Shown one piece after another: positions 54,043-58,395 of a stretch of 64,000 nt of DNA. A program made the translations under genes and the position numbers. The notes beneath the pieces were generated by a model, which did not search any database, was not told the origin of the DNA, and saw nothing but the letters and a program-made list of their open reading frames with translations. The first letter of the stretch is position 1. Each line of letters opens with the position of its first letter. This DNA comes from Chthoniobacteraceae bacterium (lineage in GTDB: Bacteria; Verrucomicrobiota; Verrucomicrobiia; Chthoniobacterales; Chthoniobacteraceae), in contig CANJPY010000013.1 of assembly GCA_947476255.1 (NCBI GenBank), forward strand, positions 1 through 64,000, in the 5' to 3' direction.

Positions 54043-54819
54043 ATGGCGGCAACGCTTTTCTCCAATTTGATTCTCGCTAATAGCGATGGTGGATTAATTT
54101 TCGCCTTCGAGCAATCCACCTTGCCTGGAAAGGTGGTGTTGTCGGTCTTGTTTTTGGGATCCGTGTTTTCCTGGTCTGTGATGCTTAGCAAATTACTCAC
54201 GCTGAGGGTCGCAAAGAAGCAGCGCGAGTTGTTTTTAGAGCTGTTTCGACAGGACCGCCAGCCCCTTCGTTTGTATGCCGAGGGGTTGAGTTTTGAGGGA
54301 GCGCCAGTTTTCGCCATTTATGAGGCGGGATGCGTGGAATTATCGTATCAACTCTTGGGATCGACAGAATTAGATGAATCCTTTGGGGCTCGGCTGGACT
54401 CTGCGGAGCGAATTACGCCTTCGCAGATGAGGGTGGTGGCGGTGGCTTTGGAGCGAGCGGTGGGGGAGTCTTCTCTGAAATTGGAGTCGCAGATGATTAT
54501 TTTGGCGACGGCCGTGAGTGGGGCGCCTTTTGTGGGATTGTTAGGAACGGTCTGGGGGGTGATGGAAACCTTTGCAGATGTGGCCAAGGCAGGCTCTGCA
54601 AGCCTCGCAGCCATGGCGCCCGGGGTGTCAGCGGCTTTAATCACGACGGTGACTGGGTTGCTTGTGGCGATTCCCGCCATGTTCGGCTATAATTACTTGG
54701 TGACTTCGGTGCGCGGCATGATTGTGGAAATGGATAATTTTGCGGCTGAGCTTACCAGTGCCTTTGAACACCGTTATGTGGAGCATCGGCCTGATGGCGG
54801 TGGGGGCCGGCGGCATTAG
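54043..54819 (+). CDS. tolQ: MotA/TolQ/ExbB proton channel protein, TolQ-like
   Basis: The 258-residue inner membrane protein forms the proton channel that powers TolA or TonB. Three helices are seen: near 25-50 (VVLSVLFLGSVFSWSVMLSK), and the pair in the conserved region (ATAVSGAPFVGLLGTVWGVM and ITTVTGLLVAIPAMFGYNYL). The polar Thr and Ser residues of the channel are in place (TVWGVMETFADVAKAG). It is followed by tolR- and tolA-like genes, which favours TolQ over ExbB, although tolB and pal are missing here. The 5' side is divergent from the LolA-like gene. Confidence 0.9.
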   Translation: MAATLFSNLILANSDGGLIFAFEQSTLPGKVVLSVLFLGSVFSWSVMLSKLLTLRVAKKQRELFLELFRQDRQPLRLYAEGLSFEGAPVFAIYEAGCVELSYQLLGSTELDESFGARLDSAERITPSQMRVVAVALERAVGESSLKLESQMIILATAVSGAPFVGLLGTVWGVMETFADVAKAGSASLAAMAPGVSAALITTVTGLLVAIPAMFGYNYLVTSVRGMIVEMDNFAAELTSAFEHRYVEHRPDGGGGRRH

Positions 54820-54827
54820 CCTGGGGG

Positions 54828-54861
54828 TTGAATGGATTGAATGGATTGAATGGATTGAATG
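54828..54861 (+). repeat. 9-base tandem repeat TTGAATGGA, about 3.8 copies
   Basis: TTGAATGGA is repeated three times plus a partial TTGAATG in the gap between the tolQ-like and tolR-like genes, without a substitution. Pure short repeats of this kind change copy number easily. Here it lies 40 bases before the tolR start, where it could alter spacing or translation. Confidence 0.85.
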
Positions 54862-54900
54862 TCCATCGAAACCGTAAAAAAACCGTGAGAATTTGATTTT

Positions 54901-55317
54901 ATGCGCCGCTTTTCTGACAAGCATAGCATGCACACGCTCAATGAATTGAATGTGACTCCTTTGCTGGATCTCGCGTTCGTTTTGTTGCTGATTTTCATGA
55001 TCACGACCCCTCTGATGGAAAACAGCACCGATCTGATCTTGCCTTCCGGTCAAAAAGACGGGGTGGCAGTCGATCCCAACAGCGTGATCAATATTTCAGT
55101 GTTTCGCGAAGATAAAATCATGCTCAACACGGAGGTGGTCCCTTTGGAGTCTCTCACCCCGCGCCTCGTCGCGTTGCACGAGGCCAAGCCTGAGATGGCG
55201 GTTGTCGTGCGTTCCCACAAAGAGTTGCCGGTGCAGCGGTTGATGGAAATTTTGGATGCTGTAAAAGCTGCGAAAATTACAAAAGTGGGGTTGGCGAAAA
55301 TCGCAGAGGGGCAATAA
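54901..55317 (+). CDS. tolR: ExbD/TolR biopolymer transport protein, TolR-like
   Basis: The 138-residue protein has one N-terminal membrane helix with the functional aspartate in LNELNVTPLLDLAFVLLLIF (the residue before LAFVLL), then a periplasmic domain (NVTPLLD and later AVVVRSHKELPVQRLMEILD). This is the usual ExbD/TolR pattern. With the TolQ-like channel it forms the motor that energises the TolA/TonB protein encoded 17 bases downstream. The ATG lies beyond a repetitive gap and has no strong ribosome binding site. Confidence 0.92.
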   Translation: MRRFSDKHSMHTLNELNVTPLLDLAFVLLLIFMITTPLMENSTDLILPSGQKDGVAVDPNSVINISVFREDKIMLNTEVVPLESLTPRLVALHEAKPEMAVVVRSHKELPVQRLMEILDAVKAAKITKVGLAKIAEGQ

Positions 55318-55334
55318 ACCGCGTCCTGTCGCAA

Positions 55335-56657
55335 ATGTCGGACGAATCGTTTTTCCGCAAGAACTTCCTCATTGTAGCGTTGCTGCATGTTGTGGCGCTT
55401 GTGGCGATTTGGTTTTTTAGCGCCGTGCACAAGGTCCAGAAGCCCGTGGAAGTAATGTGGTTGGACGGCGGCGCCGCCGGGGGAGGCTCCCCGGGCGGGG
55501 GAGCTGCAGGCGAGGTCGAGGGGGCGCCCGCACCTATTTCCAGCCCAAAGGAGACCGAGACAATACCTGATTTGCCAGCCCCAACTTTGCCCAAGTTAGC
55601 GCCTCCCTCCGTGCCCAAGGCTGAGCCGCGACTTGAACCTGTGCCAACGGAAGTAAAAGTGAAAGTGGAACCGGAGCCAGTGCACAAAGAGGAGCCCCCA
55701 AGTGAGATTTCTTTACAAACTCGCAAAGTAAAACCCGTGCCCAAACCGGAGCTCAAACCGGAGCCCAAGCCGGCGCCCAAGCCAGAGCCCAAGCCGGCGC
55801 CCAAGCCAGAGCCCAAGCCGGCGCCCAAGCCGGCGCCCAAGCCAGAGCCCAAGCCAGAGCCCAAGCCAGAGCCCAAGCCAGAGCCCAAGCCGGCGCCCAA
55901 GCCGGCGCCCAAGCCGGCGCCCAAGCCGGAGCCCAAGCCGGAGCCCAAACCGGAGCCCAAACCGGAGCCCAAACCGGAGTCCAAACCGGAGCCCAAACCG
56001 GAGCCCAAGCCAGCGCCTAAGCCCGAGCCCAAGTCCGAAGCCAAGTCCGAAGCCAAGTCCACGCCGAAGGCCATTGCCAAGGGAGAGGCCGGTGAGAAAA
56101 CAGCGGCCAAGGCTGAGGAGGTGAAACCAGTTAAAGCAGTGCCTGCGGGAGGAGGGGCATCGGGGGAGAAGGGACCGCCCTCTGTCTCGCCTGTGCGTGC
56201 GGAAGCGGTGGGAGGCGGCGGAAATGGGGGGGCGGGTACTGGTGGATCTTCTGGAAGTGTCTCAACGCGTGGTCAGAGCGGGTCCGGTGGTGGTTCCTCG
56301 GGCGGTACGGGCCAGGGCAGTGGAGCAGGCAGTGGAGCAGGAAAAGCCGGAAGCGGTCCGAGCGCTGCGGAGCTTGGACGCTACGGGCGGTCTATTTACG
56401 AACGTTTTTATGGCGTGTGGGAGCAGCCTTTATCAGTGGTTCGTTCCAATCAGGACTTTGTAACCGTTCTTAAAATACGGATTCGCAAGGATGGAAGTAT
56501 TGTGGGCAAGGAGATTGTGACGTCTTCTGGCAATCCCGCCATGGACGAATCCGTACAGCGCGCGGCAGAAAAAGTAACGCGTATCGATGCGCCTCCCGCA
56601 GGGATAACAACGGACCCATACGAGGTCAGAATCGCGTTTAAATTGGATCAAAATTAA
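55335..56657 (+). CDS. TonB/TolA-type energy transducer with long KPEP/KPAP tract
   Basis: The 440-residue protein has an N-terminal membrane anchor ([17 protein letters not shown]), a Gly/Pro region, a lysine-proline tract (about residues 133-241) that can span the periplasm, and a Gly/Ser-rich linker. The C-terminal domain of about 90 residues is TonB/TolA-like ([18 protein letters not shown] and later [19 protein letters not shown]). The tract is built from near-identical KPEP and KPAP units. Whether it serves TonB-dependent receptors or the Tol system is open; no receptor, tolB or pal lies nearby. Confidence 0.87.
55731..56058 (+). repeat. 12-base repeat array encoding KPEP/KPAP units
   Basis: Over about 330 bases the sequence repeats units of the kind AAGCCGGAGCCC and AAGCCGGCGCCC, giving Lys-Pro-Glu-Pro or Lys-Pro-Ala-Pro. 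Copies differ mainly at an A/C base and at codon third positions. Such near-identity suggests recent expansion and likely length variation between strains. Confidence 0.9.
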
Positions 56658-56704: not shown

Positions 56705-57952
56705 TTAACCTTTGACGCCAAAGGGCTTTGGATCAAATTTTTTCGGATCGAACTTTTCTCCAAATGAGTTCGCTGTTTTTTGAGAGGACGACACTTTTTT
56801 TACAAAGAAAGTCCGGCTGATAATTCCTTCGGGAGCTGCCTTGTTGGATACCCTGCATTGAAACGCCAGCATACTGTCTTCCGGTTCAAGGGCGACTGTC
56901 AGGCTCGGGTCAAAGCAACCTGCGATGGGGAGTGAAACTCCTTTGAGGTCGTCCCATTGCTCCCATTGATAACGCAAGGGCGGCTCACCCGAGACACTTA
57001 CCTCCATGCGCACTGGTTCACCGGGAGGAACGCGCAGAACCAAAGGCGTGGTCGTATCGAATTCAGGCGCACCCTGAGCCAGAGTGGGCTTCGTTTGCGG
57101 GGCGGGGGCGCCAAATACTTGAGCATTTGTTTTTGGAACTTCTTCTGGAAGAATGCCCTTCCTCCGAAACATTTGGGCATAAGTTTGCACCACCACGGGC
57201 TCCTGAGCTTTGGGCTTGTCGCCGTCAATGGAGTTGGGGGTGTTTTGTGCTGGAGAGACTGTCAGGGGTGTGCTGGCGCTTTCTTTATCTGCCTTGGACT
57301 GGGGCCCTGCGGAGGGGTTTGAGTTCGGGATTTCTTTGGAGTCGCCTATGGGGGCCCCTTCGGGAGTGGCAGGTTTCGACTCGGGGGAAGCCTGTTCTGC
57401 GGCTGGCACTGGCACTGCAGCCGATCTCGCATAGGTGTGTTTGATGCTTGATTGGAAATCTGGCCTTGGCGGTGCCTTGTAGGGAGCGGCGGGCAGCGGT
57501 TGGAGAAAGTGTACTTGCCGGAGGGCCAGTGTTTTATCGCCGGATATCTCAGAAGCCAGGGGCAGGGTGGCCGAAATATCCGTGTCCACGGGTTTGGAAT
57601 CGCGGATGGAATTCGCGATCGAGGTGAGACGCGCCGCACGCTTCTGAGTGACAAAGCGCCGGAAAGCAAGGCAGTCGGCTTGAGTTGCCGGAGCCTGCCA
57701 CTGAAAATGTTCATAGCCCGAGAACGCTTGCCAGTAAGGATTTTCAGGCCAGCGCAGCAGAACCTCTCCCTCTGAAAGGCCTGTGACTTCACTTAAAACA
57801 ACGATGGATGCCAACACCCAGATTTTTGCCGCCGCAAATCCTTCTTGCTGGGCGTCTGGAAAAAGCGCGACGACTTCCGTCCAGTCAAAGTCACGCGCCG
57901 CCTTCGCGAGGGGGCGCGTGAGATCCAGAATATCGAAAAGCCGGACTTTCAT
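56705..57952 (-). CDS. IS5-type transposase N-terminal domain joined to Ig-like domain
   Basis: The 415-residue protein has no signal peptide. Its first 110 residues match the DUF772-type N-terminal domain of IS5-family transposases: RLFDILDLTRPLAKAARDFD, LSEGEVLLRWPENPYWQAFS with the GYEHFQW follow-up, and AFRRFVTQKRAARL. The DDE catalytic domain that should come next is absent. A low-complexity Pro/Ala/Ser-rich linker (about 130-270) is followed by an Ig-like domain (GEPPLRYQWEQWDD and AFQCRVSNKAAPEG). This looks like a captured transposase fragment reused in a new protein. It is convergent with the TolA/TonB gene. ATG 57952 is chosen; a GTG lies four codons earlier. Confidence 0.8.
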   Translation of the reverse strand: MKVRLFDILDLTRPLAKAARDFDWTEVVALFPDAQQEGFAAAKIWVLASIVVLSEVTGLSEGEVLLRWPENPYWQAFSGYEHFQWQAPATQADCLAFRRFVTQKRAARLTSIANSIRDSKPVDTDISATLPLASEISGDKTLALRQVHFLQPLPAAPYKAPPRPDFQSSIKHTYARSAAVPVPAAEQASPESKPATPEGAPIGDSKEIPNSNPSAGPQSKADKESASTPLTVSPAQNTPNSIDGDKPKAQEPVVVQTYAQMFRRKGILPEEVPKTNAQVFGAPAPQTKPTLAQGAPEFDTTTPLVLRVPPGEPVRMEVSVSGEPPLRYQWEQWDDLKGVSLPIAGCFDPSLTVALEPEDSMLAFQCRVSNKAAPEGIISRTFFVKKVSSSQKTANSFGEKFDPKKFDPKPFGVKG

Positions 57953-58395
57953 CGAGGGTTCCACCCTATACCAACTATGGAACGGAGGGGAATGCTGATG
58001 CCTCTTTTTTTAGGCCCGAATCTTTTCCTCGCCCCGTCGCAGGCTGCTTTTTATGGATTTAGAGAATCACTGGGACCGCCTGCGGTGCTCCCTCTTCCCG
58101 CTTCGGGGGGCGCCCTCTGATTCAAAGAAGGGCAGTGGATGGGGCCCGGGCGCATTTTCGGCATTCTTTTGTTCAGGTTTTTGCTCAACTATAGGAGTGG
58201 TGTGCTCGGGGTTCTGTGATGCTCGAAAGATCATCGCGGTAGTGCCGAAGCGGAGGGATGCGCGACAGAAAATAGGTCATGGCGGTGGGGGCGATCGCTG
58301 AGGAAACTGATGCTTGCTGCAATAAACCCTGATTCAGGCTATCCCTGAAGACGCTTTTTCGTTTTTACTCGAATCTTTGTTAGAAGAACGGATTT
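57953..58395. other. Gap of about 440 bases with little recognisable content
   Basis: No tRNA or named RNA family was recognised here. The region contains a short T run near 58005 and a possible small minus-strand ORF, listed separately. It separates the transposase-Ig gene (minus) from the cupin gene (plus) and must hold the promoters of both, but no clear consensus boxes were found. Confidence 0.5.
58067..58234 (-). CDS. Possible small protein, 55 residues
   Basis: An open frame begins with ATG 58234 (MIFRASQNPEHTTPIVEQKP) and ends at TGA 58067, with a hydrophilic, Pro/Glu/Lys-rich composition and a very basic end (GKREHRRRSQ). The composition is protein-like, but there is no ribosome binding site, no known family and another frame overlaps. 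It may simply be a chance frame. Confidence 0.22.
   Translation of the reverse strand: MIFRASQNPEHTTPIVEQKPEQKNAENAPGPHPLPFFESEGAPRSGKREHRRRSQ

Follow-up and report, generated by a model that had tools for sequence, protein, structure and literature searches.

Is the gene at positions 56705 to 57952 a decaying piece of a transposon, or a host gene built from one? These positions lie on the minus strand of the window (i.e., the whole 64,000-nucleotide stretch of Chthoniobacteraceae DNA that was analyzed), where they formed an open frame and a complete CDS of 415 aa. The start, the ATG at 57952 (MKVRLFDIL...), was backed by orthologs. The encoded protein was comprised of an IS5-type N-terminal domain (NTD), a disordered linker, an Ig-like domain, and a conserved C-terminal tail. 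Intact orthologs occurred in nine species (the main clade) and a diverged copy in a tenth (G011), in agreement with an earlier note on this DNA that had called the gene intact. The same note had proposed a protein made from part of an IS5 transposon. This was borne out by a profile match, loss of the catalytic DDE domain, intact orthologs, the strong purifying selection seen in NTD and Ig domain alike, and the grouping of all ten NTDs in one clade. Given the purifying selection, intact frames, and single clade, the gene is very probably an exapted IS5 transposase N-domain kept as a host gene, and not a product of decay.

The NTD covered residues 1–122 (57587 to 57952, minus strand). The NCBIfam profile NF033578 (IS5 family transposase) matched residues 3–109 (E = 7.5e-17, profile positions 7–115 of 419), confirming that the first 110 residues are an IS5-family transposase domain. 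This profile search had been set beforehand as a possible refutation, and it returned the transposase match. E-values were about 1e-16 to 7e-19 for orthologs and 1.9e-12 for the diverged G011 copy; the scores (58–68 bits) were below the curated full-length score of 275 bits. The window protein scored just under the cut-off of Pfam DUF772, and all four relatives tested scored over it. Homology to IS5 transposases included the ENPYWQ..F.G motif and ended just before the first catalytic Asp. When full-length transposases were aligned to the 3.5 kb around the gene (tblastn), only their N-terminal part aligned and no DDE remnant was found, in line with the claim that the DDE domain is gone.

Most positions conserved among the compared transposases were kept in the NTD: W24, G38, L53, S60, W68, Y73, Q75, F77, G79, P88, and R98. 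All 13 compared transposases had Arg at position 45, as did the G011 copy, whereas the nine main-clade proteins had Trp there; D61 of the transposases was replaced by Glu in the host protein. The window NTD was at most about 27% identical to the compared transposase NTDs, and the net charge of the NTD was near zero, much as in transposase NTDs. Together, the altered and kept positions would fit an NTD with a retained core and some changed contacts. An AF2 model of the NTD alone, built from 25 host and transposase sequences, was helical throughout (pLDDT 93, pTM 0.86). A fold search with this predicted NTD gave no match in PDB or among viral structures, and a profile search for a solved relative found none. 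No solved structure found in these searches thus represents the predicted fold of this IS5 transposase part, and a DNA-binding function cannot be read off by analogy. DNA binding by the NTD is plausible but putative, given the unmatched fold and the Trp at position 45 in the main clade.

The gene did not behave as an insertion sequence. No terminal inverted repeats were found flanking it, as the earlier note had also reported. One perfect 12-nt pair (I3), considered as the mark of an insertion sequence remnant, was the sole such pair; it lay inside the CDS, was not conserved in relatives, and was rejected. The genomic site (by tonB) was shared in all main-clade contigs that showed it, with none of the varying sites expected of an IS5 insertion sequence. 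IS5 fragments in the genus were mostly truncated or decayed, and IS5 elements of the NF033578 type were rare in genomes of the family, including those that lack the gene. Elsewhere in the same genome, an IS5 DDE-domain fragment (G000:C31:23138-23605, locus L091) covered profile positions 260–418 only.

Residues 123–288 (57089 to 57586, minus strand) formed a Pro/Ala/Ser-rich linker of about 165 aa, almost all of it with pLDDT < 50 and predicted to be disordered. Within it, residues 142–178 (57419 to 57529, minus strand) held the motif LALR..H..QP.P..PYKAPPRPDF.SSIK..YA.SA, a possible interaction motif that was kept in the nine main-clade orthologs and lost in the short G011 copy; no second occurrence was found in the same genome. 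An AF2 model using ten aligned relatives predicted the helical N-domain, the disordered linker, and a beta sandwich at residues 304–386.

The Ig-like domain spanned residues 296–386 (56795 to 57067, minus strand). A separate profile search of this part gave a match to Pfam Ig_3 (E = 6.7e-4, 20.6 bits) that fell below the gathering cut-off of 30. The Ig fold, left open by the weak Pfam scores, was settled by AF2 and Foldseek: the best PDB matches to the predicted sandwich were Ig domains (E = 4.9e-5). The Ig-like domain is thus weak by sequence and clear by predicted structure, and the order of a long linker followed by an Ig-like domain stands. The same genome contained 63 Ig_3 matches, which are possible donors of the domain. 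Most of these were in large frames and are probably secreted; a cytoplasmic Ig domain would be unusual. Downstream of the domain, residues 393–415 (56708 to 56776, minus strand) formed the C-terminal tail, with NSFGEKFDP conserved among orthologs.

Selection was estimated (Nei-Gojobori) from closer pairs with unsaturated synonymous sites, several wider, saturated pairs being left out; dN/dS was 0.03–0.08 for the NTD, 0.055–0.106 for the Ig domain, and about 0.19–0.30 (with a lower bound of about 0.12 in the wider statement of the range) for the linker, which was looser than both domains. The conservation check proposed in the earlier note thus revealed strong purifying selection on NTD and Ig domain, and no stops occurred in the relatives' frames. 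GC and GC3 of the gene were close to the values of its neighbors.

The long form of the gene was found in 9 of 12 genomes of one Chthoniobacteraceae genus and in none of 28 other family members; the sole other match in this family search (G028) was a complete IS5 transposase. No ortholog outside the genus was found among 213 genomes of the order, nor in a 388-genome sample of the phylum that was searched less deeply (at most about four candidates scored per genome). A scan of GTDB contigs yielded four loci only, titled Chthoniobacteraceae, Spartobacteria or Verrucomicrobia. Two of the copies (G009 and G014) were on short contigs. Two genomes of the genus (G010 and G012) gave no match; as their contigs end in tonB, the gene is only possibly absent there. 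The G011 copy (L022:7330-8148, minus strand) was a diverged protein of 273 aa with NTD, short linker, and Ig domain.

Wherever main-clade contigs showed that side, the gene adjoined exbB-exbD-tonB (54043 to 56657, plus strand, in the window; Pfam MotA_ExbB, ExbD, and TonB_2) and was convergent with tonB. The neighboring TonB (55335 to 56657) had a very long (EPKP)n spacer that varied in length between species. The G011 copy sat between flagellin and feoB/feoA genes, and in that genome tonB and bioA were side by side, the positions between which the other species have the gene. The earlier note had placed the gene in the midst of envelope genes, which holds for the exbB/exbD/tonB side but not for the other, where sugar-metabolism and housekeeping genes were found. 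Co-occurrence with the exbB set likewise held as synteny in the main clade but not beyond it, since the G011 copy lies elsewhere and the exbB-exbD-tonB cluster occurs across the family, including other genera, without the gene.

In a GlmS tree G010 and G012 diverged first and G011 next, which left the species that have the gene as the last clade (support 85/93). In the NTD tree the ten host NTDs formed one clade (100/99) against 15 other sequences. This tree had no root, a long branch led to the host clade, and the position of G011, itself long-branched, was unsure; the direction from transposase to host protein is therefore taken from the distribution of IS5 transposases, which is far wider and extends over the phylum and to plasmids of many genera. 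Most simply, the gene arose once within the one genus. The simplest course would be a single fusion before G011 and the main clade diverged, after which the linker expanded and the gene settled at, or moved to, the tonB site; the short G011 copy is then a possible intermediate. Loss or relocation in G011 is a possible alternative course.

A conserved block upstream of the gene (57953 to 57995, minus strand; ATTCCC...TGGTGTA-like), identified in an upstream alignment of nine orthologs, is likely its own promoter, with a very short leader. The block ended about 15 nt before the ATG, and no clear ribosome-binding site was present. The gene probably has its own transcript, which may be nearly leaderless. 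A simple hydropathy test revealed no signal peptide or transmembrane segment; the highest 19-residue value (1.74) fell in a helix that is also present in transposases. The lack of both features, the convergent transcription, and the position of the G011 copy by flagellin and feoB do not indicate an envelope role; the link to the envelope is weak, coming from synteny that fails in G011. PADLOC and PHROGs searches gave no match to anti-phage defense or phage proteins.

The best explanation of the whole is that the exapted NTD and Ig domain form a DNA-associated adaptor or regulator (probability about 0.5). In this reading, an IS5 transposase was severed immediately ahead of its catalytic DDE domain, and its NTD gained an Ig-like domain, of which the genome has many of this kind, by way of a long disordered linker; the gene has since been kept by selection, and its role in transposition is gone. 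Without a catalytic domain, signal peptide or transmembrane segment, the protein is predicted to be non-enzymatic and cytoplasmic. N-terminal transposase domains are thought to dock on nucleic acid or to self-associate. The protein may thus work as a two-headed tether, in which the compact helical NTD would dock on nucleic acid or self-associate, the Ig domain and linker motifs would bind protein partners, and the whole would act as a DNA-associated adaptor or regulator. This mechanism of DNA docking or self-association is put forward tentatively, at a little under even odds. The unmatched NTD fold, near-neutral charge, replacement of Arg45 by Trp in the main clade, and unusual setting of a cytoplasmic Ig domain count against it, and the neighboring genes, which differ in G011, provide no functional context. 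That IS5 N-domains are a recurrent bacterial route to regulators, reused as sequence-specific DNA-binding heads and here paired with an intracellular Ig domain as partner-binding head, is doubtful.

The change at position 45 would also fit an NTD that no longer binds DNA and is a pure protein-protein module, the protein being a cytoplasmic scaffold that perhaps touches the ExbB/ExbD/TonB machinery. The conserved linker motifs and tail and the main-clade synteny with exbB-exbD-tonB point the same way, but the convergent orientation, the separate upstream block, the G011 copy by flagellin and feoB, and the other genera with exbB-exbD-tonB and no such gene make this scaffold rather unlikely. Truncated or N-terminal transposase products repress some other insertion sequences, and the orphan NTD could in the same manner be a host-encoded silencer, acting either at the ends of IS5 elements, by binding them, or on IS5 transposases, by drawing them into mixed complexes that are inactive. 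Such a role would suit the retention of most conserved transposase motifs (W24, ENPYWQ, G79, P88, R98) and the mostly truncated or decayed state of IS5 in the genus. It is nonetheless improbable: the NTD is on a long branch at the low identity to compared transposases given above, position 45 has Trp in place of Arg, NF033578-type IS5 is scarce in the family even where the gene is missing, and a selected Ig domain would be superfluous for silencing.

Two further readings concern origin. The long branch between host clade and transposases in an unrooted tree would be expected also if the NTD were an ancient helical domain taken up independently by host proteins and IS5 transposases; with the host gene found in one genus only, the transposases present in much of the phylum and in plasmids from many genera, and a transposase-type Arg at position 45 in G011, this is highly improbable. 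Transposase fragments are common debris and the linker is of low complexity, as would be the case if the gene were a functionless chimera, formed by chance or now decaying, in which a piece of a transposase adjoins an Ig gene. Such a chimera is scarcely credible and is contradicted by the data: dN/dS was 0.03–0.11 for the two domains, the frame was intact in 10 genomes, and the gene had the same site in the main clade. The reading as an exapted host gene, acting as a DNA-associated adaptor or regulator, is preferred over all of these.

Domesticated transposases are well documented in eukaryotes; in bacteria, documented cases are mostly of a few families such as TnpB. The function of exapted TnpB-derived regulators of bacteria is known. 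They are likewise bacterial transposon proteins that lack nuclease activity and were kept as host genes, whereas the present protein comes from another family. With IS5 family transposases (NF033578; DUF772 PF05598 and DDE domain) it has the whole N-terminal domain in common, but it lacks the DDE domain, terminal repeats, and any sign of mobility, and carries a C-terminal linker and Ig domain under purifying selection. The predicted Ig fold is common to it and to bacterial Ig-like domain proteins (Pfam Ig_3 / I-set); unlike them, it has a single divergent Ig domain joined to a transposase domain and no signal peptide. In eukaryotes, transposase DNA-binding domains have been captured, for example the Tc1/Mariner HTH by F-box genes (PMC12062965). 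There too the N-terminal domain of a transposase was joined to a host domain of other origin and retained; the present case is bacterial and of the IS5 family, and fold searches of its NTD gave no HTH match. The literature searched, in which most subscription journals are missing, contained no report of a domesticated DUF772/IS5 N-domain. Domesticated transposase domains as a kind are already known, and the NTD-linker-Ig architecture is a new form of them. The single clade, possible intermediate in G011, tonB-bioA adjacency, and strong selection make this a directly testable case of bacterial transposase domain capture. The small, selected, catalysis-free IS5 N-domain would also be a good object for structure and binding work, the PDB searches described above having matched no structure to it.

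A second protein, of about 176 aa and consisting of the IS5 N-domain alone, was found in two genomes (G399 and G490) of another Verrucomicrobiota family (L071:1453-1980; L070:1315-1890, minus strand). The G490 copy matched DUF772 (E = 1.7e-13) and NF033578 (E = 2.4e-40), and no DDE domain was found near the gene in either genome. In both, the gene was convergent with that of a HEAT-repeat protein. The pair had a dN/dS of 0.147 and was present in only 2 of 29 family members. Less well supported than the main case, this protein suggests recurrence of N-domain reuse. Other NTD-only candidates of the phylum search were rejected: in L067 a transposase had been broken into two frames, L062 and L074 ran off their contigs, and L063 and L077 were transposase fragments. 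Among the short NTD-only frames of that search, only L070 and L071 were without a DDE domain and agreed between two genomes.
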